A DNA stretch of 64,000 bases. Origin: Asanoa ishikariensis. Its GTDB lineage: Bacteria > Actinomycetota > Actinomycetes > Mycobacteriales > Micromonosporaceae. The DNA is taken from NCBI RefSeq assembly GCF_900107455.1, contig NZ_FNQB01000005.1:1-64000 (forward strand), read 5' to 3'. Positions 34,590-46,344 of the stretch are shown piece after piece (position 1 is the first letter of the stretch; each line of letters starts with the position of its first letter). The position numbers and the translations under genes are program-made. A model generated the notes under the pieces. It saw only the letters and a program-made list of their open reading frames with translations. It ran no database searches and had not been told where the DNA came from.

Positions 34590-34661
34590 GACGGCAGCTA
34601 ACCACTGTGGAGCCCATCGATATGCGCGCTGCGTCCGGCGATCGGCCGTAGCGTGGATCGG

Positions 34662-35840
34662 ATGAAGGATGCATCCGTGACCCGGCGGCGGCTGCTCGCG
34701 GGCGTCGGCTCGGCCGTGGTGGCGGGTCTGGCGGGCTGCGGTTCCGGCAACGCCGAAACGCCCCCGCGACAGCCGGCGAGTCCGACACCGTCCCCGGCGG
34801 CCTCGCCGAGCAGCTTCGACGAGGCCGCCCTCCGGCGGAAGATTTCCAGCCTGCTCGTGGTCGGTTTCCGCGGCCAGACGGTCGACAACAACGACTGGAT
34901 CGTGAAGGCGGTCAAGAACGGCCTCGGCGGCGTCATCCTGTTCGACAAGGAACTGGAGACCAACGCCCCGCGCAACATCACCTCGCCGGCCCAGGTCACC
35001 GCGCTCGTGAAGAGCCTGCGAGACGCCGCACCCGGGCCGCTCATCGTGTCGATCGACCAGGAGGGCGGCCAGGTCGCCCGCCTGAACCCCAGCAACGGCT
35101 TCCCGGCGACGAAGTCGGAGGCCGAGATCGGGGCCCAGAACTCGCCGGCCGCGACCCGGGCCTGGGCTCAGCAGATCGTCGACAGCCTCAGGTCGATCGG
35201 CGTGAACCTCAACTACGCGCCGGTCGTCGACCTGAACCTGAACCCGAACAACCCGGCGATCGGCCAACTCGGCCGCAGCTTCTCCGCCAACACCGACGTC
35301 GTCGTCACGAACGCGACCGAGGAGATCCAGGTCCACCGGGCGGGCAAGGTCAAGACGTCGATCAAGCACTTCCCGGGCTTCGGCACGGCGACCGGCAACA
35401 CGGACTTCGACGTGGTCGACGTCAGCGCGACGTGGACGCGGGCCGAGCTCGTCCCGTTCCAACGGCTGATCAGCAGCGGAAACGCCGACTCGGTGCTGGT
35501 CGCCCACCTGCTCATCAAACAACTCGACCCAAACCTGCCGGCCTCGCTGTCACCGGCCGTCGTCACGAACCTGCTTCGCGGCCAGCTCGGCTTCAAGGGC
35601 CCGGCGGTCAGCGACGACATGCAGGCCGCCGCGATCACCAGGAGGTACGGCCTGGACGAGGCGGTCGCGCTCGGTCTGAAGGCCGGCCTCGACCTGCTCG
35701 TCTTCGCCAACCAGCAGGTGTACGACCCGAACGTCGTGGACGAGACCCTCGACAACGTCGTCAACCTGGTCCGCAACAAAACCCTCACCGAGGCCCAGAT
35801 CGACCAGGCCGTGGCGCGCGTCGACACCCTGCGCCCCTGA
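34662..35840 (+). CDS. GH3 beta-N-acetylhexosaminidase-like Tat lipoprotein
   Basis: 392 residues from the ATG at 34662 (GTG at 34653 also possible). The leader has a twin-arginine motif (TRRRLLAG) and a lipobox ending GLAGC, followed by a Pro/Ser-rich linker, so the enzyme is exported folded and anchored outside. The catalytic domain has VGFRGQTV, DQEGGQVARL, the KHFPGFG signature that places the acid/base His in NagZ-type enzymes, and the nucleophile aspartate in VSDDMQ. It should remove N-acetylglucosamine from peptidoglycan fragments or chitin-like sugars. Confidence 0.9.
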   Translation: MKDASVTRRRLLAGVGSAVVAGLAGCGSGNAETPPRQPASPTPSPAASPSSFDEAALRRKISSLLVVGFRGQTVDNNDWIVKAVKNGLGGVILFDKELETNAPRNITSPAQVTALVKSLRDAAPGPLIVSIDQEGGQVARLNPSNGFPATKSEAEIGAQNSPAATRAWAQQIVDSLRSIGVNLNYAPVVDLNLNPNNPAIGQLGRSFSANTDVVVTNATEEIQVHRAGKVKTSIKHFPGFGTATGNTDFDVVDVSATWTRAELVPFQRLISSGNADSVLVAHLLIKQLDPNLPASLSPAVVTNLLRGQLGFKGPAVSDDMQAAAITRRYGLDEAVALGLKAGLDLLVFANQQVYDPNVVDETLDNVVNLVRNKTLTEAQIDQAVARVDTLRP

Positions 35841-35871
35841 CTCTGACCCGTCGCGCGGTCGAATGCCCAGG

Positions 35872-38800
35872 TCACCGCCCTGATGGGTGCCCTGGGCTGA
35901 GGCGCACGTGGATGATTCCGAGTTCGGCGGCGGCGAAGACGCTGTTCGAAGGGCCGAGGACGATGTCGTGCGCCGCGGACGAGATGTCGATGGCGAAGTC
36001 GGGGTCCGAGTGGGCAACCGCGAGGCCCCGTAGGGTCCAGATCCGGATGAAGCCGCCGGTGCTGCCGGAGGCGATGATCGGTTGGCCGTCAAGCTGGCCG
36101 ATCGCGACCGCGTACACCGCGCCGGTGTGACCGGTCAAGGAAGCTCCGATCTGGTTGCCGGTGGCCGGGTCCCATATCCGCACGCTTCGGTCGCTGCTGC
36201 CCGAGACGATGATCGTGCGTCCACCGACATCACCGACCGCGACCGCGTGGACCTGATCGCTGTGGCCGACGAACGGGAAGCCGGTGCGGATGCCGGTGGC
36301 GATCTCCCAGAGCCGAACGGTGTGGTCATCGCTGGCGGTGGCGATGATCGGGCGGCCGTCGAGGTCGCCTGTCGCGATGGCGTTGACCGCAGCGCTGTGG
36401 CCGGTGAGCGGGTCGCCGATCAGGGTCCCGGTGGCGGCGCTCCAGATCCGCACTGTTCGGTCGTCGCTGCCGCTCGCGATGAACGGACGGCCGTCGAGGT
36501 CGCCGATGGCGATCGCCTTGACGGCGGCGGTGTGTCCGGTGAGCGGCTTGCCGACCGGCGTGCCCGTGGCGCCGTCCCAGATCCGCACCGTTCGGTCGTC
36601 GCTGCCGCTCGCGATGATCGGCTGGCCGTGAAGGTCACCGACGGCGACGGCGTTGACCACGGCGACGTGGCCGGTCAGTGGGTCGGCGATCGGTGCGCCC
36701 GTGGCCGCGTCCCAGATCCGCACGGTGCGGTCGTCGCTGCCGCTCGCCACGATCGGGCGGCCGTCGAGGTCGCCGATGGCGATGGCGTTGACCGAGGCGG
36801 TGTGGCCGGCGAAGGACGAACCGACCGGCGCGCGGGTCGCGGCGTCCCATACCTGGACCGTGCGGTCGCTGCTGTTCGAGACGATGATCGGCCGGCCCTC
36901 TAGGTCACCGACCGCTACCGCGTCTACCGAGCCGGCGTTCCCGGTGAGCGGCTCGCCGATCGCCGCACCGGTCGCGGGGTCCCACACGCGGACGGTCCCG
37001 TCGACGCCGCCGGAGACGATGATCGGGCGATCATCGAGGTGACCGACCGCGACGGCGTACACCGCACCGGTGTGGCCGGTGAGCGGCGTGCCGATCGGGG
37101 CTCCCGTAGCGGCGTCCCACATCCGGATGGTCCGGTCGGCGCCGCACGAGACGATCATCGGGCGGCCGTCGAGCTGACCGATCGCCAGCGCGTGGACCTC
37201 GTCGGAGTGACCGGCGATCGGGAGGCCGATCGAGGCGCCGGTGGCGGCGTCCCACACCCGCACGGTTCCGTCACGCCCGCCGGACACGATGATCGCTCGA
37301 TCGTGCAGTCGACCGACCGTCGCCGACTGAACGCCGCGGGCGTGGCCGGCGAGCGGTTGGCCGATCGGGGCTCCGGTGCCGGCGTCCCACACGCGCACGG
37401 TGCCGTCACCGCCGCCGGACACGATGATCGGCCGGCCGTCGCTCTGACCGATGGCCACCGCGTTGACCAAGCCGGTGTGACCGGCGAGCGCCTCGCCGAT
37501 CGGGGCACCGGTGGCGATGTCCCAACGCCGCACAGTTCCATCGTCACTGCCGGAGACGACGATGGGACGGCCGTCGAGTTCACCGACCGCGACCGTGCGG
37601 ACCCAGTCGGTGTGTCCGATGAGCGGTTCGCCGATCGGGGCGCCGGTGGCGGCGTTCCACATCCGCAGCGTCTGGTCGTCGCTGCCGGAGACGATGATCG
37701 GTCGGCCGTCGAACTGACCGACCGCGACGGCGTGCACCTCCTCGGCGTGCCCGGCGAAGGGATCGCTGATCGGGTTGTCAGTGGCGCTGTCCCAGACGCG
37801 CACGGTGCGGTCGCTGCCGCCGGACACGATGATCGGGCGGCCGTCGAGTTCGCCGACGGCGACGGCGCGGACCCAGTCGGTGTGGCCGGCCAGTGGTTCG
37901 CCGATCGGGTTGCCGGTTGTCGCGTCCCAGATGCGGACGGTTCGGTCGCTGCTGCCGGAGACGATGATCGGGCGGCCGTCGAGCTGGCCGATCGCGACCG
38001 CGTTGACCCACCCGGTGTTGCCTGCGAGAGGTTCGCCGATCGGGTTGCCGGTTGTCGCGTCCCAGATGCGGACGGTTCGGTCGCTGCTGCCGGAGACGAT
38101 GATCGGGCGGCCGTCGAGCTGACCGACCGCTACCGCGTTGACATCGCCGGTGTGATCGGACATCGGCTGGCCGACGAGGGTGCCGGTGGTCGGGTCCCAG
38201 ACCCGCACTGTTCGATCGTCGCTGCCGGAGACGATGACCGGTCGGCCGTCGAGTTCGCCGACGGCGACGGCGCGGACCCAGTCGGTGTGGCCGGCCAGTG
38301 GTTCGCCGATCGGGTTGCCGGTTGTCGCGTCCCAGATGCGGACGGTTCGGTCGCTGCTGCCGGAGACGATGATCGGGCGGCCGTCGAGCTGACCGACGGT
38401 CACCGAGTTGACTTCGCGGGCGTGGCCGGCGAGCACACCGCCGATCGGGTCGCCGGTTGTCGCGTCCCACACCCGGACGGTTCGGTCGCTGCTGCCGGAG
38501 ACGATGATCGGGCGGCCGTCGAGTTGGCCGACCGCCACGGCGTACACGGAAGCGGTGTGACCGGCGAGTGGGTCGCTGATCGGGGTGCCGGTGGCCGCGT
38601 CCCACACCCGCACCGTTCCGTCGCCGCTGCCGGAGACGATCGCCAGGCGTCCGTTGAGGTTGCCGGTGACCACCGCGCTCACCAGGTCTGTGTGACCGAT
38701 GAGGGTTTGGTGGGGTGGTTGCAGACGCCACGAGGCCCAGGCGGTCGCGAACGGCAGCGGCAGGCCACTGCCGGTGATAGCCGCGGCAAGGCCAGGTGCT

Positions 38801-41085
38801 CTCGCGCACCGGGCCGCGAGTTGAAGATATGCGGCGCGGTGGCGGTTCGACGCGGTGCGGATGCGCGTGGCCGCTCGGCGGTAGGCGTCGGCCGTCGCGT
38901 GTCCGTCGGCGGTGCGGATGTGCGGAAGGGCGGCTGACAACGGTGCTTGGGGAGTGTCAAGCAGGAACCGGGGTTGCGCCACGAGGTCGTCAAGGCGACT
39001 GGAGCCGGCCGCGTGGGTGGCGATGGTCGCGGCCGTGTAGGGATGAGCCCTCGCCCAATCGGTGGTGCCGTCGGGCAGTCTCGGGACGCGCCGGGTGAGG
39101 ACGTCGACGATCGCGGCCTGGTCGGCTTCGATGTCTCGTGCGGCGCGCAGGTGTTCGGCGAGGGACTCGTGATGGAGGCGGTACACCGAGCGGGTGCCGA
39201 GCGTGGTTTCGATGACGTAATAGCCGGCTTCCTTCATCAGCCAGTCGAGATCACCGTTGCCGCACGGGCGGCCGGTGAGCGTGCGCACCAGTTCGGGCCA
39301 CAGGTCCTCCCACGGCAAGCCGCTGGTCTGGGCGTACGCGAGCGGAAGAAGGAGGTCCCGCGCCCGTGGGGCTTGGTGGGTGAGGCGCTGGGAGAGGTCC
39401 TGACTCATCGCCTCGGCGGCTTCGCGGGGCAGCTCGACGCGCCAGGTCGGATCGTGCGGGTTGGTCACCGCGGCCGCGCGGAGGGCCAGGCTCTGGGCGG
39501 TGATGAACGCGACGAGGAACGAGTCGCCCGCGTTGGCGGCAACGGCGTCGGCGACGGCGTCCAGATAGGCGGCCGAGCGTCCACGGTAGGGCGAGGCGTC
39601 GGTGAGCGCGGTCAAGCAGGCCCGGGCGTACTGACGAACACTGTCCGGGTCAGCGAAACCGGGCTTGTCGAGGTCGAGCAGTTGCGCCTGCTGACCCAGA
39701 CCATCGACCAGATGTGTGCGGGTGCCGAGCAGCAGGCGCAACGGTGTCCGTCCGGCGGCGGCTACGAGTGGGGCGAGGACCTGGTCCACCACCGGCGACC
39801 CGACCCCGGCGAGGTCTTTGCCGGGCGCGACGGCTTCGTCGATCGCGTCGATGATGACAACGATGCGCGTTCTGCCTTCCGGCAGGCGGCGAAGCAGTGC
39901 ACCGACGGAGTCCACCGCGGCGATGTCGTCGACTTCGCACGCCTCGGCCAGTGCGGACAGGAGGTCCTGTGGAGTGTGACCCCGGGCGTGGATGAAACGG
40001 TCGATCACTCGAGGCGGGGGGATGGTGTCGGCGGGCAGCAGGTGAAGGTTCGGCACGCGCCCGCGGCGTTGGGCATCGCCGAGCACGTCGAGGCGACCCA
40101 GCAGTGCCGATTTGCCTGACCCGGGGCCGCCGGTCACGATCAGCGTCGCGGGGCCGGTGCCGCTGAGCCATCGATTGACGGTTCGCAGCGCGGCGTGTCT
40201 GCCGGTGAACAACCACAGGTCGTCCCGAACGGCGGGGCCATCGAGACCTTGGGCGCGTGGCATGACGTGGTCGTGACGCTCGCGCTCGCGTGCCTGCCGT
40301 TGATGTTGCCGGGCGCGTGCTTGCTGATCGAGGTCCGCGTACCAGTTCTTGAAGCGTGGGTTCGGAAAGAACTCTCCCGCGCGCTCGCCGATGAACATCA
40401 ACTGTGCGTGCTGATGCAGCGGTGTGTTGTCGTTGACGGCAAGGACGACGGCGTCGAGTGGCAGGTACGGTATCTCGCGTCCGCCGACAGAGGTGTCATG
40501 GCCTATGGCGGCAGCCAACGCGCGGGTAAAGGCGCCCGCCGTCGCGGATTCGTAGTTTCGTGCGGCGCCGATCACGGCCACGGAAGGCGTGCCGGCCAGG
40601 GCTCGCAGCCGATCCAGGAAGGCAGCCGCGTTGGCACCCATGAGGCCTGCTGCCGCAGCGCTGTAGCAGGTGTCGAGAATGATCAGCAGTTGTTGACCGG
40701 TCACCTCTCCGGGTTCCTGGCTGTCGAGCAGCTTGCCGGTCAAGTCGCCGGCTCGCACCGATTGATAGGTGACATCAGTCGTGTCGGCCATCGGCAGAAG
40801 CAGATCGGTGCCGTGCCCAATGCCGTGACCGGTGTAGTAGACAACCACCACGTCGGTGGGGCGTCGATCCTCGGAACGCAGGAACTCGCGAAGCTGATCC
40901 TGGAAAGGCCGAGCCCCCAGCCCGAGACCGAAGCCGGGCACCACCTCATAGCCGATGCCGGCGAACAGCTCCCGCGCGCGCCAGAGCTCCTCGGCCAGTT
41001 CCGGACGATCGTCCAGATTCACCTCTGGCTGGTAGGTGATCGTTGCCGCGCCGATGAAGTATCGCCGTGGCTGGGGGGTCGCCAT
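35872..41085 (-). CDS. Caspase-NTPase-WD40 giant protein (metacaspase STAND type)
   Basis: 1737 residues. Residues 1-250 form a caspase-like (C14) domain with the catalytic dyad His87 (YYTGHGI) and Cys140 (LDTCYS). Residues about 290-620 form a NACHT/AAA-type NTPase with Walker A GGPGSGKSALL (Lys325) and Walker B RIVVIIDAIDEA. A helical linker follows, and residues 798-1697 are 20 WD40 repeats of exactly 45 residues each, enough for nearly three seven-bladed propellers. STAND proteins of this form sense a target or signal through their repeats and then activate the protease. It starts 12 bp after an alpha/beta hydrolase gene and faces two TIR genes, which suggests an immune or programmed-death role. 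No defence function is proven by sequence alone. Confidence 0.92.
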   Translation of the reverse strand: MATPQPRRYFIGAATITYQPEVNLDDRPELAEELWRARELFAGIGYEVVPGFGLGLGARPFQDQLREFLRSEDRRPTDVVVVYYTGHGIGHGTDLLLPMADTTDVTYQSVRAGDLTGKLLDSQEPGEVTGQQLLIILDTCYSAAAAGLMGANAAAFLDRLRALAGTPSVAVIGAARNYESATAGAFTRALAAAIGHDTSVGGREIPYLPLDAVVLAVNDNTPLHQHAQLMFIGERAGEFFPNPRFKNWYADLDQQARARQHQRQARERERHDHVMPRAQGLDGPAVRDDLWLFTGRHAALRTVNRWLSGTGPATLIVTGGPGSGKSALLGRLDVLGDAQRRGRVPNLHLLPADTIPPPRVIDRFIHARGHTPQDLLSALAEACEVDDIAAVDSVGALLRRLPEGRTRIVVIIDAIDEAVAPGKDLAGVGSPVVDQVLAPLVAAAGRTPLRLLLGTRTHLVDGLGQQAQLLDLDKPGFADPDSVRQYARACLTALTDASPYRGRSAAYLDAVADAVAANAGDSFLVAFITAQSLALRAAAVTNPHDPTWRVELPREAAEAMSQDLSQRLTHQAPRARDLLLPLAYAQTSGLPWEDLWPELVRTLTGRPCGNGDLDWLMKEAGYYVIETTLGTRSVYRLHHESLAEHLRAARDIEADQAAIVDVLTRRVPRLPDGTTDWARAHPYTAATIATHAAGSSRLDDLVAQPRFLLDTPQAPLSAALPHIRTADGHATADAYRRAATRIRTASNRHRAAYLQLAARCARAPGLAAAITGSGLPLPFATAWASWRLQPPHQTLIGHTDLVSAVVTGNLNGRLAIVSGSGDGTVRVWDAATGTPISDPLAGHTASVYAVAVGQLDGRPIIVSGSSDRTVRVWDATTGDPIGGVLAGHAREVNSVTVGQLDGRPIIVSGSSDRTVRIWDATTGNPIGEPLAGHTDWVRAVAVGELDGRPVIVSGSDDRTVRVWDPTTGTLVGQPMSDHTGDVNAVAVGQLDGRPIIVSGSSDRTVRIWDATTGNPIGEPLAGNTGWVNAVAIGQLDGRPIIVSGSSDRTVRIWDATTGNPIGEPLAGHTDWVRAVAVGELDGRPIIVSGGSDRTVRVWDSATDNPISDPFAGHAEEVHAVAVGQFDGRPIIVSGSDDQTLRMWNAATGAPIGEPLIGHTDWVRTVAVGELDGRPIVVSGSDDGTVRRWDIATGAPIGEALAGHTGLVNAVAIGQSDGRPIIVSGGGDGTVRVWDAGTGAPIGQPLAGHARGVQSATVGRLHDRAIIVSGGRDGTVRVWDAATGASIGLPIAGHSDEVHALAIGQLDGRPMIVSCGADRTIRMWDAATGAPIGTPLTGHTGAVYAVAVGHLDDRPIIVSGGVDGTVRVWDPATGAAIGEPLTGNAGSVDAVAVGDLEGRPIIVSNSSDRTVQVWDAATRAPVGSSFAGHTASVNAIAIGDLDGRPIVASGSDDRTVRIWDAATGAPIADPLTGHVAVVNAVAVGDLHGQPIIASGSDDRTVRIWDGATGTPVGKPLTGHTAAVKAIAIGDLDGRPFIASGSDDRTVRIWSAATGTLIGDPLTGHSAAVNAIATGDLDGRPIIATASDDHTVRLWEIATGIRTGFPFVGHSDQVHAVAVGDVGGRTIIVSGSSDRSVRIWDPATGNQIGASLTGHTGAVYAVAIGQLDGQPIIASGSTGGFIRIWTLRGLAVAHSDPDFAIDISSAAHDIVLGPSNSVFAAAELGIIHVRLSPGHPSGR
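35995..38694 (-). repeat. Array of twenty 135-bp WD40-coding units
   Basis: The units are the same length with no indels, and several are nearly identical in DNA. A block of roughly 145 bp starting near 37846 recurs at 38251, exactly three units away. The array codes for the propellers of the caspase protein and is likely maintained and altered by recombination between units. Confidence 0.9.
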
Positions 41086-41097
41086 CCGACAATCCCG

Positions 41098-41961
41098 TCA
41101 GCGCAGCCCGGCCAGGACCGCGGCGCCGGTCTCCGCGGCCGACAGGTAGCGCTCCGCCGCGTGGCCCGAGACGCCGTTGCTGATGGCCACGTCGACGACG
41201 CGCTCGCCGAACACCGCCCGGAGCCGCGGTTGCAGCGCTACGAAGTCTCCGTCGTCATTGATGTTCACCCACCGGCTCACGCCCGGCCACACGCCGAGCG
41301 GCGCCCCCGCCCCGCTGCTCGGCTGCGGTCGCAGCCGGTGCAGGACGACATGCGGAACTCCCAGCGGGGAACCCAGCGTCACCAGATCCGTCACATTCGG
41401 GTGCTGTCGCGTGCACAATCCTTCGTACGCCAGGACGGAGCCGAGTGAATGCGCCACCACGACGCGGGTATCCGCGTCGATCGCTTCAGCGAACCGTTTC
41501 TGAATCGCCTGCCGCGTCTCGGCATCGGTGAAATATGTGCTGACCTGCTTCAACCACCACACCAATGTGCGCTCCGCGACCCGCGCCAGAAAGCGCGACC
41601 CGGCAAGGGCCAACAGAGCTGCCCGCGACGACGCCCGCGCCCCGAGGGTGCGACCGTCGGGCGGGGGCACTCCCGGATCTATCTCCGCCGCACGCTTCCA
41701 CCATGCCAACAGCAGCTCGGTCTCGAGGCCGTCGTCGACATCGTCCGCTGTCAGCGGGGGGCCATCACCGCCGAGAAACCTGCCAGACGGACGAAAGATA
41801 TCCCCGTAGGCCACGTAGCCGATGTCGTCTGTGGTCAGGATTCCGCGGGCGCCGCCAGCGAGCTCCACGCCACCGCGCAGCGCCGGTCCCCATGTCTGGG
41901 CCAATTGTGGGCCAGTGATGAAGGTATTCGAGATTCCATGAACGACGACGACTCGGCTCAC
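41098..41961 (-). CDS. Alpha/beta hydrolase (lipase-like) of the caspase operon
   Basis: 287 residues starting at GTG (41961); the open frame reaches 42060 but would run into the TIR promoter region. The oxyanion strand VVVVHGIS and the nucleophile elbow VVVAHSLGSVLAYEGL are clear, and a histidine near the end (VSGHAAERYL) may complete the triad. It resembles PGAP1/lipase-type hydrolases often found beside caspase and STAND genes. It is the first gene of the leftward operon, 12 bp ahead of the caspase gene. It could be an effector that attacks membrane lipids. Confidence 0.8.
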   Translation of the reverse strand: MSRVVVVHGISNTFITGPQLAQTWGPALRGGVELAGGARGILTTDDIGYVAYGDIFRPSGRFLGGDGPPLTADDVDDGLETELLLAWWKRAAEIDPGVPPPDGRTLGARASSRAALLALAGSRFLARVAERTLVWWLKQVSTYFTDAETRQAIQKRFAEAIDADTRVVVAHSLGSVLAYEGLCTRQHPNVTDLVTLGSPLGVPHVVLHRLRPQPSSGAGAPLGVWPGVSRWVNINDDGDFVALQPRLRAVFGERVVDVAISNGVSGHAAERYLSAAETGAAVLAGLR

Positions 41962-42105
41962 AGGTCCAGAGCATAGGGCCAACGCGGTCCGGAAGGCTGC
42001 GCTCAATCGGTCGATAGATTTCGGCCACGAGGTTGACACTTCGGTGCTGGCCCGCCTCAATCTAGTCTTGGTTCGCGACTCAATCGGACGTGGGAGATCG
42101 ACATC
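41962..42105. promoter_or_regulatory. Bidirectional promoter region between the hydrolase-caspase and TIR operons
   Basis: 144 bp separate the two divergent starts. The TIR gene has a gggag ribosome site ending nine bases before its GTG. No clear palindrome or -35/-10 pair stands out. Confidence 0.4.
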
Positions 42106-42777
42106 GTGAGAACCTCCAGGTACGACGTCGACCCGAGCGCGCCGTTGTTCTTCCTGAGCTACTCCCGGGCCAGTACGCGCACTGTCGCCCGCGATCCGGA
42201 CCGACGGGTGATGGAGCTGTTCTCCGACCTGTCCGAGAACGTGAGCGAACTGGTCGGCGGGCTACCCGGCGAAGACCCGGGGTTCGTGGATCACGCGACG
42301 GTGGGCGGCACCCGATGGTCCGCCGAGCTCTTCCGCGCCGCCAGCACCTGCCAGGTCTTCGTCCCGTTGATCTCGGCGAGGCTGCTGAGCAGCACCTGGT
42401 GCGGCATGGAGTGGGACTTGTTCGCGCGGCGCAGAGTGGTTCGCATCAGCGACGGTGAGGTGTCCGATGCCGGAATCCTTCCGGTCCTTTGGACCCCTAC
42501 GGACGACTACGCTTCCGCTCCGCCGGTGGTCAAAGATATTCAGCTCTTCACGCCGGTGGGCCTCCCAGATCCCCAAATGGCGGCGACCTACCGGCGGGAG
42601 GGGCTGCTCGGGCTGCGCATGGTCGGTGCGGATTCCGTCTACAACGCGATCGTCTGGCGACTCGCCCAGGCGATCGTAGAGATCGCCAGGCGGCATCACG
42701 TCGAGCGACTCGACCCGATCCCGACCAGCACTGACCACCTCCGGAACATCTTCCTCGCGGGCAGGGAGGTGGACTGA
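42106..42777 (+). CDS. TIR-like protein 1 (FxsC type)
   Basis: 223 residues starting at GTG. The opening strand PLFFLSYSRAS and the later FVPLISARLLSSTWCGMEWDLF match the TIR-like FxsC family; Glu102 sits where TIR NADases carry the catalytic glutamate. TIR enzymes of bacterial defence cleave NAD or make cyclic ADP-ribose signals. Its stop overlaps the start of a second TIR gene by one base (TGATG), so both are made together. FxsC proteins are usually annotated with FxSxx-COOH peptides, but no FxsA peptide or radical-SAM FxsB gene was found here. Confidence 0.8.
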   Translation: MRTSRYDVDPSAPLFFLSYSRASTRTVARDPDRRVMELFSDLSENVSELVGGLPGEDPGFVDHATVGGTRWSAELFRAASTCQVFVPLISARLLSSTWCGMEWDLFARRRVVRISDGEVSDAGILPVLWTPTDDYASAPPVVKDIQLFTPVGLPDPQMAATYRREGLLGLRMVGADSVYNAIVWRLAQAIVEIARRHHVERLDPIPTSTDHLRNIFLAGREVD

Positions 42778-43988
42778 TGGGCGCCAGCGACGCGCAGTCG
42801 CGGGCGGGAGGCGACAGCGGTATCTATTTCTACCTGAGCTACGCGCACTCGCCGCCGACGCCCGATGGCGTCGGCACCGACCGCCCGGTGGAGGCCTTCT
42901 TCGACGATCTTTCTCGCGCCGTCCAGCTCCGATCGCGTCCGGGTCGTGCGAGCGTCGGGTTCTCCGGCCAGCACGTTCCGGCTGGGGCGGACTGGAACGC
43001 CGTGGTCACCGGGGCGCTCGGCGCCGCTCAGGTCTTCATCCCGCTCTATTCTCCCCGGTATTTCAAAGGCGCGTGGATGACCCGGGAGCGCCGTGCGTTC
43101 GCCGAGCGGGTCGCGGCCACGGGCCAGGACCCCGTTGACCGGATCATGCCGGTGCGATGGATCCCGATGGAGACGTGGGATCAGACGCCCGAGACTCGGC
43201 GCGCCCTTCAATTCGGCAGCGACGTCCCGGAGTACGCCGCAGAGGGCATGCGTGCGTTGTGCATGGTGGGTCTCTACCGGGAGCCGTACGAACGGCTGCT
43301 CGACAAACTCGCGGTCGGGATCGTCGACCTCGCCGAACGATCGCCCTTGCCGCCCGTGTCCGGGCGATACCTCGGCCCGTTCCTGGACCAGCCGACCGAG
43401 GAGACAACTGCGGCTCCATTCGTCGTCGCGGTGACCGCGCCCATCGCCAGTCACCTGCCACCGCGCCGCGCTCCCGGCAGCTATGGCACCGTGAGCAGCC
43501 AATGGCGCCCCTTCGCACAGAGCCAGGAACGGCCAATCGGCGAGTACGGGGTGAACCTTGTCGAGCGGCTCGGATTGCGGGCCAGCCTCGCGTCGTACTC
43601 GAGTCGGTCGGAAATCTTCGCCTCGGCACCGGCGTTGCTTTTGATCGACCCCTGGGTGGCCGGTCAGCCGGACGGCATCAACGTGCTGCGTGCCGCCTTG
43701 AAGGATCTCCCGGAATGGGTAGTGCCCCTGGTCATCGCGGACCGCGACGACCCGCAACACTCCGAGCGCGGCGACCGCCTCGCCGGCGAGGTGATGACGA
43801 TGCTCCAAATGGCTCGCCCCACGCGAGCGGAGCGAGTGGCCGGGCTAAAAGAGTTCACGGACATCGTGCCCGGGCTCGTCGTCAGGGCGAAACGGACACA
43901 CCTGAAGCAGGCACAAGCGTTTCCGCCGCAGTCCGCGCGTCTCACGCGCCCTACGCTGCGTCAACAACGGCCGATGTCCACGGGGTAG
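42777..43988 (+). CDS. TIR-like protein 2 (FxsC type) with C-terminal extension
   Basis: 403 residues. The N-terminal half repeats the fold of its neighbour: IYFYLSYAHSPP, the FFDDLSRAV helix and IPLYSPRYFKGAWMTRERRAF, with Glu104 at the putative catalytic position. Residues about 200-400 form an extra domain with ALLLIDPWVAGQPDG and ADRDDPQHSERGD, in line with long FxsC-type proteins, which may act in partner binding. It is translationally coupled to TIR 1 and lies 79 bp before the NB-ARC/TPR gene. Confidence 0.8.
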   Translation: MGASDAQSRAGGDSGIYFYLSYAHSPPTPDGVGTDRPVEAFFDDLSRAVQLRSRPGRASVGFSGQHVPAGADWNAVVTGALGAAQVFIPLYSPRYFKGAWMTRERRAFAERVAATGQDPVDRIMPVRWIPMETWDQTPETRRALQFGSDVPEYAAEGMRALCMVGLYREPYERLLDKLAVGIVDLAERSPLPPVSGRYLGPFLDQPTEETTAAPFVVAVTAPIASHLPPRRAPGSYGTVSSQWRPFAQSQERPIGEYGVNLVERLGLRASLASYSSRSEIFASAPALLLIDPWVAGQPDGINVLRAALKDLPEWVVPLVIADRDDPQHSERGDRLAGEVMTMLQMARPTRAERVAGLKEFTDIVPGLVVRAKRTHLKQAQAFPPQSARLTRPTLRQQRPMSTG

Positions 43989-44067
43989 GACGGCACGTTG
44001 CCCGGCGTGGCCCCGGCGCGGGATCATCGACGCCACGTGATGGCTGGCTTTCCGGGACCGGGGGTAC

Positions 44068-46344
44068 ATGCAGGCGCTCGATCCACGCGGAGTGACGACC
44101 GCAGAGGAGTTCGTCGTCCTGCTGCGCCGCGTACGGGACCGGTCGGGCCTGTCCTACCGGACGATCGCGAAACGGGCCGAGGTGGCCGGCGCGGTGTTGC
44201 CCGCCAGCACGCTCGCCACGATGCTCGCCCGGCAGACCCTTCCCCGCCGCGAGCTGGTGACGGCCGTCCTGACCGCGTGCGAGGTTCCGCCCGCGGCGGT
44301 ACGGCAGTGGATCGCGGTGTGGGAACGGCTGGCCGAGGGCGCCGCCCCGGAACCGGAGCCCGCTGAGCGCCCGGTCCAGGTGCCGTTCCAGCTGCCACCC
44401 GCGCCGCCCGTGCTCGTGGGCCGCGACGACGAGCTCGACCGGCTCGCCGAGGGGCTGGCCCAGCCGCCGGGCGTGTGGCTGCTCACCGGTGCCGGCGGCG
44501 TCGGCAAGTCCGCCCTCGCGGTGTTGGCCGCCCACCGTGCGGCCGGCCGGCACCCGGGCGGCTGCCTCTACGTCGACCTGCGCGGTGCCAGCACCGATGC
44601 CGCGCCGAGCGAGCCGCACGACGTGCTCCTCGGCTTCCTGCGGGCCCTCGGCGTTCGCACCGCACCCGCCACGGTGGACGAGGCCAGTGCGCTGTTCCGC
44701 AGTACGACGGCCGACCGGGCGATGCTGGTCGTGCTCGACAACGCCGGGTCGGCCGCGCAGGTGCGGCCGCTGCTGCCCAGCGGCCCGCGGTCGACCACAT
44801 TGGTGACCAGCCGGCGCCGGTTGCCCGACCTCGACGTGACCCGGCGCCTCCCGGTGGAGCCGCTGGCGGCCTCGGCCGGGCGGGACCTGCTCGCGCACCT
44901 GTGCGGGCCGGAGCGGGTGACCGTCGAGGCCGCGGCCGCCGGCGACATCGTCCGGCTGTGCGGCGGGTCCCCGCTCGCTCTGCGGATCGTGGGCGCGCGG
45001 GCGGCGGGCCGGCAGGCACCGGGCACCCTCGGCGCCCTCGCCGCCCACCTCGGCGACCACGCCCGCCACCTCGACGAGCTCGAGGTCGGCGACCTGTCGG
45101 TGCGCGCGGGCCTGCGGGTCGGATACCGAAGCCTGCCAGCGGACACGGCCGCGACCGTGTTCCGCCTCGCCGCGGTTCCCGAGTGGATCGAGCTGGGCGC
45201 GGCCGCCTGTGCCGCGATGCTCGACGCGCCTCAGGTGGCCGTCGAACGCGCCCTCGACGTCCTCGTCGATGCCCATCTGGTCGAGTGCCCGGCGCCGGGC
45301 CGGTTCCGTTACCACGACAGCGTGCGGATCTTCGCGCGTGAGCAGGCTTCGGAGGTGGATCCACCGGCTGCCCAGCTCGCGGTGCGGGAGCGGCTGGCGG
45401 CGGTGATGTTCAGCGCCGCCGCCAGCGCCGCGCGCACGCTCTTCCCGCACGACCCACTGCCGTACACGGAGATCGCTGGCACCGCGCAGCGTCTGATCGC
45501 GCCGGACGCCACCACCGCGCAGGCCTGGCAGTGGCTCGAACAGGAGCGGGTCAACATCAGAATGCTCGCCGGTCAGGAGTACGCGGCCGGCCGCGCGCTG
45601 CCCGCGATCCGTGACCTGGGCATCGCCGTGGCCAAGTACCTGGACTACGCCGGTCACTTCGTCGACCAGGCCCGCCTCGGACAGCTCGCGATCGCGGCCG
45701 CGCAGCGGCTCGGTGACCAGCGAGGCACGGCGCAGGCGCTCAACACGCTGGCCATCGCGATGCTGCGGCACGAGCGGCGGCGCGAGGGCATCGAGCTGCT
45801 CGACCAGGCGCTGGCGATCAGGCGGGAGCTCGGCGACCGGGCGGGGGAGGCGGCCTGCCTCAACAACCTGGGCAACGCCCACCGCGACAACGGCGACTTC
45901 GAAGCGGCGCTGCGGTGCCTGGAGCGCAGCCTGACACTGCGCAAGGAGCTCAGCGACCGCTACAAGACCGGGTCCACACTGGACAACATCGGGATCGTGC
46001 TGCGCCGGCTGGGACGGTTCGAGGAGGCGCTGGACCACCACCGCGCCGGCCTCGCGATCACCCGCGAGCTGGACGACCGGCTCCGGGAGGCGCTGGTGCT
46101 GACCAACCTGGCCGAGACCGAGCATCAGGCCGGTCAGCAGCGCCAGGCGCTCTGGCACGCCGAGCGGGCGCTGGCCATCAGCCGGGAGTTGCGCCACGAC
46201 CGCGGGTGCGGCCTGGCCCTGCGGCTGTTGGGTGACATCCACGGGAGCCTCGGCCGGACGACGCAGGCGCAGGCGTGCCACGACGAGGCGGCGGAACTGC
46301 TGCACGAGCCGGCGATCGGCGTGGAGGCGCCGACCGCCGGCTGA
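44068..46344 (+). CDS. HTH / NB-ARC / TPR regulator-like STAND protein
   Basis: 758 residues. An N-terminal helix-turn-helix (SGLSYRTIAKRAEVAGAVLPAS) is followed by an NB-ARC NTPase with Walker A GAGGVGKSALAV, Walker B AMLVVLDN and the GSPLALRIVG segment, a winged region, and C-terminal TPRs (EGIELLDQALAIRRELGDR, then EEALDHHRAGLAITRELDD). It is like an AfsR/SARP protein lacking the OmpR-type domain, and like the TPR partner (FxsT) annotated with FxsC. It follows the TIR genes on the same strand and could sense the signal or control the locus. Confidence 0.85.
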   Translation: MQALDPRGVTTAEEFVVLLRRVRDRSGLSYRTIAKRAEVAGAVLPASTLATMLARQTLPRRELVTAVLTACEVPPAAVRQWIAVWERLAEGAAPEPEPAERPVQVPFQLPPAPPVLVGRDDELDRLAEGLAQPPGVWLLTGAGGVGKSALAVLAAHRAAGRHPGGCLYVDLRGASTDAAPSEPHDVLLGFLRALGVRTAPATVDEASALFRSTTADRAMLVVLDNAGSAAQVRPLLPSGPRSTTLVTSRRRLPDLDVTRRLPVEPLAASAGRDLLAHLCGPERVTVEAAAAGDIVRLCGGSPLALRIVGARAAGRQAPGTLGALAAHLGDHARHLDELEVGDLSVRAGLRVGYRSLPADTAATVFRLAAVPEWIELGAAACAAMLDAPQVAVERALDVLVDAHLVECPAPGRFRYHDSVRIFAREQASEVDPPAAQLAVRERLAAVMFSAAASAARTLFPHDPLPYTEIAGTAQRLIAPDATTAQAWQWLEQERVNIRMLAGQEYAAGRALPAIRDLGIAVAKYLDYAGHFVDQARLGQLAIAAAQRLGDQRGTAQALNTLAIAMLRHERRREGIELLDQALAIRRELGDRAGEAACLNNLGNAHRDNGDFEAALRCLERSLTLRKELSDRYKTGSTLDNIGIVLRRLGRFEEALDHHRAGLAITRELDDRLREALVLTNLAETEHQAGQQRQALWHAERALAISRELRHDRGCGLALRLLGDIHGSLGRTTQAQACHDEAAELLHEPAIGVEAPTAG

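Follow-up and report, generated by a model that had tools for sequence, protein, structure and literature searches.

A caspase-STAND-WD40 protein, its hydrolase partner and an orphan FxsC pair in a strain-specific insert of Asanoa ishikariensis

We examined the first 64,000 nucleotides of contig NZ_FNQB01000005.1 of Asanoa ishikariensis (the window), in which a gene for a caspase-STAND-WD40 protein (P0001) and a gene for a lipase-like alpha/beta hydrolase are transcribed away from two coupled genes for TIR proteins. The caspase, hydrolase, TIR1 and TIR2 genes together make up a strain-specific block some 8.1 kb long. The hydrolase together with the caspase-STAND-WD40 protein is a widespread unit, and the TIR pair is an orphan FxsC pair, detached from the usual FxSxx peptide locus. 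All five open reading frames (ORFs) that a first-pass annotation had assigned to one system were confirmed at their positions, and the annotation also proved right on ORF lengths, caspase dyad, Walker motifs and the 20 WD40 repeats.

35872..41085, minus strand: caspase-STAND(NOD)-WD40 protein P0001, 1737 amino acids (aa)
41098..41961, minus strand: lipase-like alpha/beta hydrolase, 287 aa; ORF open to 42060
41962..42105: divergent intergenic region from hydrolase start to TIR1 start, 144 bp
42106..42777, plus strand: TIR1, FxsC N-terminal type (FxsC1), with SxWCxxE motif and Glu102
42777..43988, plus strand: TIR2, full FxsC with N- and C-terminal domains (FxsC2), with Glu104
35837..43975: strain-specific insert; congener homology ends at 35836-35849 and resumes at 43972-43975
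44068..46344, plus strand: HTH-NB-ARC-TPR gene, genus background, outside the unit

Boundaries of the insert

The four genes are assigned to one block because DNA homology to the congeners stopped and resumed around them, at the left border in all five GH3 loci compared and at the right border in four of the five NB-ARC loci. In each of the five other genus members compared, the GH3 gene (34653-35840) was 83 to 89% alike, and the remaining flanking genes were ordinary as well (aldehyde dehydrogenase, major facilitator superfamily and others). In two congeners (G072 and G101) the flanks lay 1433 and 2311 bp apart with other genes in the same interval, which by eye resembled an ECF-sigma pair (G072) and UspA (G101). 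The G+C content at third codon positions was 0.79 to 0.85 in the four insert genes, compared to 0.93 in GH3 and 0.92 in the NB-ARC gene. The NB-ARC-TPR gene, which starts 79 bp past TIR2, had been counted as a member of the system. It was rejected as such and is genus background, because it has homologs in all five congeners (80 to 92% in four, 49% in G088) and homology resumes before the gene. The proposal of one new five-gene system is supported only in part.

Within the insert, 12 bp separate the hydrolase stop from the caspase ATG. The hydrolase probably starts at GTG 41961, as its homologs imply, rather than at the first start of its ORF; with this start and the TIR1 start at GTG 42106, the divergent gap of 144 bp holds as annotated. 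The gap contained short imperfect repeats and no promoter-like or operator repeats beyond these. An Rfam search of 34 to 48 kb returned no family, and no tRNA was found in the whole window.

The hydrolase-caspase unit and its WD40 repeats

The caspase-like domain of P0001 (approximately residues 3 to 245) carries His87 in YYTGHG and Cys140 in LDTCY, and both residues were invariant in 35/35 aligned sequences, the window protein included. With this dyad and a caspase fold it belongs to the caspase superfamily. The following NTPase region (approximately residues 285 to 780), with Walker A from residue 319 (GGPGSGKS) and Walker B from residue 409 (VVIID), best matched Apaf-1/CED-4 folds (Apaf-1 3sfz, E 6.7e-11), the predicted caspase-NOD region matched Apaf-1 and caspases, and no Pfam NB-ARC match was present among the best 25 of 38 families for P0001. 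The P-loop NTPase, NOD fold and repeat sensor place the protein among the STAND/AP-ATPase NOD-like receptors (NLRs). Its 20 WD40 repeats of 45 aa each (residues 785 to 1684) and a closing stretch would fit three seven-bladed propellers. An NCBIfam match to PuhC (70.8 bits, cut-off 55) was judged a false match of WD40 type. The match to NF047832 of the EACC1-caspase two-gene system (51.9 bits) was below the cut-off of 140, and plain Thoeris or EACC1 membership was rejected on this score and on the lack of a PADLOC match.

Ser172, Asp239 and His267 of the hydrolase were invariant in 52/52 aligned sequences and its predicted fold is lipase-like; its profile had no significant match among PDB sequences (best E 0.11). 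In the family, 13 of 14 hydrolase relatives had a caspase alongside (all but that at locus L027) and 12 of 14 an NTPase. Among the best 80 of 512 hydrolase relatives, which come from GTDB genomes with flanks of at most 10 kb, several of them on short contigs and at least 8 repeating genomes of the first set, a caspase was found at 77 loci, an NTPase at 69, WD40 repeats at 62, an FxsB-like gene at 5 and FxsC at 0. These counts and the invariant dyad bear out the annotated partnership of a hydrolase with a STAND caspase receptor-protease. The relatives occurred mainly in actinobacteria, but also in cyanobacteria and one Methylomonas. Plasmid records with hydrolase relatives numbered 41, and those with FxsC relatives 5.

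FxsB-like genes lay beside the hydrolase in 6 of the 14 family loci (L022 and L024 to L028), so hydrolase-caspase units and Fxs genes do meet. At L022, L024, L025, L026 and L028, hydrolase-caspase-WD40 units adjoin FxsB-like radical SAM, HEXXH and NB-ARC-TPR proteins, and one NB-ARC-TPR protein at L022 carries EAD2 and VMAP-M0 domains. At L027 (G132), which lacks the caspase, the hydrolase adjoins an Fxs locus whose TIR is FxsC-like.

The 18 core repeats of the window protein had a mean likeness of 62%. Over the last 28 residues, their mean identity was 0.67, compared to 0.20, 0.23 and 0.36 in the three further WD40 proteins detected in this genome. The repeats of the L021 protein were 83% alike among themselves and 63% alike to those of the window. 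When four variable sites were masked, 19/19 repeats of L021 and 16/19 of the window had their nearest neighbor within the same protein. Amino-acid change was concentrated at these sites, repeat positions 17, 19, 37 and 39, beside the invariant V18 and D38, and the four-site combination differed among all 19 regular window repeats. The pooled ratio of nonsynonymous to synonymous differences (pN/pS) was 1.44 at the four sites versus 0.63, with P<0.05 in 18/18 proteins; with the published hotspots 17, 19 and 37 alone, 17/18 proteins passed. The variable positions agree with the top-face hotspots described in the literature (R1-2, R1 and D-1). Hotspot diversity is already known for highly repetitive WD40 proteins in general (PMC5587647), and paired sites in the Podospora het-d/het-e repeats are under positive selection (PMC1805685).

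The orphan FxsC pair

TIR1 and TIR2 scored 146.1 and 135.7 bits against the FxsC N-terminal model NF040588 (curated cut-off 130), and the second also matched the C-terminal model TIGR04276 (89.5 bits, cut-off 55). The description of two coupled TIR proteins with conserved glutamates was accurate: the genes overlap by 1 nucleotide, Glu102 was invariant in 23/23 aligned sequences, and the Glu104 position held Glu in 26/27 and Asp in one, the window being included in both alignments. Both proteins keep the catalytic Glu of TIR NADases. The FxsC1 profile matched the plant L6 TIR (E 2e-6) and the CRISPR-associated Cat1 (E 2.7e-4) in the PDB, aligned at SxWCxxE, and the FxsC2 profile had no significant PDB match (best E 0.12).

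FxsC genes usually have Fxs company. Around 20 fetched FxsC2 relatives we found FxsT (20/20), FxsB (19/20), the HEXXH peptidase (19/20) and FxsC1 (16/20), with a caspase or hydrolase in 0/20. The family survey (200 genomes) yielded at least 150 FxsC matches at a minimum of 102 loci, and FxsB lay within 12 kb in 43 of the 48 listed FxsC pair loci; a status of "without FxsB" can be wrong, as with the split FxsB of G031 (L034) and the 3.5-kb contig of G038. At the window locus, no FxsA, FxsB, HEXXH peptidase or FxsT lay beside the TIR pair, and the comparison of loci with reference proteins matched TIR, caspase and hydrolase references solely. One FxSxx-ending ORF of 26 aa is present, antisense within the caspase gene. 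The same genome has four FxsB loci above the cut-off, one alone with its own FxsC pair. The FxsB nearest to the window is at C6:491292, about 450 kb away, and a standard Fxs locus on C2 has FxsC1, FxsC2, FxsT, an FxSxx-ending peptide, FxsB and HEXXH. At L142:7888-8115 (G000:C6), a 75-aa peptide ending in FCSFLDADL lies just before an FxsB gene and by its position is likely a precursor.

Further FxsC pairs without FxsB were those at L149 and L153, both of which have FxsT, at L152, where no partner was found, and at L145. In the last (L145:773-5132; G039, C101), at which no FxsB was found, an NNH7-NACHT protein is encoded head to head with the TIR pair; here too, orphan FxsC faces a STAND protein.

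A recurrent pairing of TIR and caspase genes was not supported. Among the family FxsC loci listed (102, from 200 genomes), a hydrolase relative lay within 15 kb in the window and in G020, and among 394 class genomes, intersected by eye, FxsC and hydrolase came within 15 kb in no genome other than that of the window; the nearest other case was G472, with the genes about 29 kb apart. The G020 locus (L144, G020:C1:194000-213000) has consecutive genes for a VMAP-M2 protein, a MoxR-like AAA protein, a TIR protein and an alpha/beta hydrolase; a GHG motif resembling that of caspases was noted by eye. The annotation had held that its proposal would fail if TIR, hydrolase and caspase genes never co-occurred in other genomes. 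This is nearly the case, because FxsC was absent from the best 80 hydrolase loci and no other class genome had the combination, and the two exceptions, L144 (a VMAP ternary system) and L027, are partial meetings of TIR and hydrolase. A link between the TIR pair and the caspase unit is hypothetical.

Related systems and interpretation

Each part of the locus is of a known kind, and the unit with its diversified WD40 sensor is a new variant. Caspase, STAND NTPase and WD40 repeats share one chain in metacaspase-NACHT-WD40 proteins, which are widely distributed (PMC3501461), and in other caspase-STAND-repeat proteins (PMC3501461, PMC4986451). In contrast, the NTPase here fits Apaf-1/CED-4, the repeats are unusually alike and the lipase-like gene is a constant neighbor. 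The Apaf-1 apoptosome has the NOD fold and the WD40 sensor, whereas here the protease is in the same chain, with no CARD and 20 repeats. Caspase genes adjoining alpha/beta-hydrolase genes also occur in VMAP ternary systems, where they are predicted to cooperate (PMC7159879). However, the caspase here shares its chain with an Apaf-1-like NOD and WD40 repeats, and the window lacks the ternary composition, as no VMAP, MoxR or vWA was found in the ten flanking ORFs or the five genes (best 25 of 38 families for P0001). FxSxx systems (NF040588, TIGR04276; PMC7159879) share FxsC, as defined by the curated cut-offs, but the pair here stands without their other components.

The fungal NACHT-WD40 proteins HET-D and HET-E (PMC1805685) have highly alike repeats that vary at paired top-face residues. 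P0001 shares both traits, its variable pairs flanking the invariant V18 and D38, and the sites would correspond across a pair spacing of 20 here and 18 there; however, it is bacterial, and in place of a HET effector and NACHT it has a caspase N terminus and an Apaf-1-like NOD. Type IV Thoeris likewise joins a TIR and a caspase-like protease at one locus (PMC12847820), but in one operon, whereas the genes here are divergent, do not recur together and include the Apaf-1-like NOD and WD40 repeats. Bacterial and fungal gasdermin-protease two-gene clusters (PMC10197012) also set a protease receptor beside the gene of a membrane-acting partner; here the partner is lipase-like, and its cleavage is a proposal. 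A literature search found no description of the combination among the papers listed, which is no proof of absence from print. The annotated statement that no named system matches thus holds for the combination, but not for its parts, which have counterparts in the FxsC family and in the caspase/hydrolase pairs of PMC7159879.

The reading that we favor, at even confidence, is that the insert carries two modules, a diversifying receptor-protease with a lipase-like executioner and an orphan TIR pair. The first would be NLR-like: the WD40 wheel of 20 near-alike repeats with a diversified top face may bind a protein of non-self or invader origin, whereupon the Apaf-1-like NTPase would open and oligomerize and bring the caspase domains together. 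The caspase would then cut targets, most likely including the co-encoded hydrolase, which may harm membranes and lead to cell death or arrest. This would amount to an apoptosome or inflammasome contracted to one chain, with a lipase in place of the pore former of gasdermin clusters. Because the catalytic Glu is kept in both TIR proteins, the second module is probably an NAD+-using or NAD-signal arm. Several results weigh against this two-module reading. The fold matches of the hydrolase have low template modeling scores. Same-protein nearest repeats numbered just 0 to 2 per protein in 5 of 15 relatives, the Catellatospora/Hamadaea-type proteins at L022, L024, L025, L026 and L028, so homogenization of the WD40 repeats is not universal. 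The four sites had been chosen after the repeat entropies were seen, and at high divergence relaxed constraint could also account for a pN/pS near 1.4. PADLOC 2023 had no match for P0001 to P0004. For 109 of 115 selected genes flanking the pair in relatives, no PADLOC family had more than 2 members (25 shown of 62), a comparison made without a control set; there is thus no general defense-island signal.

The modules might instead be two unrelated cargoes of a variable interval, with the FxsC pair serving FxSxx loci in trans and the hydrolase-caspase unit working alone, which we consider possible at somewhat less than even confidence. The Fxs company of other FxsC pairs, the four FxsB loci of this genome and the different genes in G072 and G101 argue for it, but the four genes arrived within the same outer boundaries, and hydrolase-caspase pairs elsewhere adjoin FxsB-like genes. 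Head-to-head placement and co-insertion speak for a connection of the TIR pair to the receptor, and non-recurrence in 80 loci and 394 class genomes speaks against it. If connected, the genes could be a circuit like type IV Thoeris, in which the FxsC pair would sense infection and an NAD-derived signal would switch on the caspase protein, with WD40/NOD as a signal-gated assembly platform and the hydrolase as a second effector. This is consistent with the conserved Glu in both TIR families, the alignment of SxWCxxE with plant L6 TIR, the head-to-head pair at L145 and the activation of a caspase-like protease by N7-cADPR in type IV Thoeris (PMC12847820). We nevertheless regard it as unlikely, given the non-recurrence, the shared operon of Thoeris partners and the lack of a significant PDB match for FxsC2.

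It is equally doubtful that the unit acts in development or stress, for example in hyphal differentiation or programmed lysis, and not in conflict; the relatives in filamentous actinobacteria and cyanobacteria and the lack of defense-gene enrichment near the pair would suit it, but patchy, strain-specific presence and a diversified WD40 top face are unusual for a housekeeping developmental gene. A similarly improbable reading is that the locus corresponds in bacteria to the heterokaryon-incompatibility receptors of fungi: a one-chain apoptosome with homogenized WD40 repeats, diversified on the binding face, that would separate self from non-self in hyphae, with a lipase that kills and a recruited FxsC NAD arm.

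If the two-module reading is correct, apoptosome logic (WD40 sensor, Apaf-1-type switch and caspase) is present in one bacterial protein with a constant lipase-like partner, and the residues at which its sensor evolves are those that change in the non-self receptors of fungi. The ligands of bacterial caspase receptors would then become directly testable, as would diversified allorecognition or invader-recognition repertoires in multicellular bacteria.

Two other loci had related proteins. In the same genome, a further WD40 protein (L189:1410-4187; G000:C8) has a TIR-like start as judged by eye. In Asanoa iriomotensis (L030:15174-17653), a caspase unit is succeeded by a CHAT protein, which matches EACC1 weakly, and by a Trypco2 protein.
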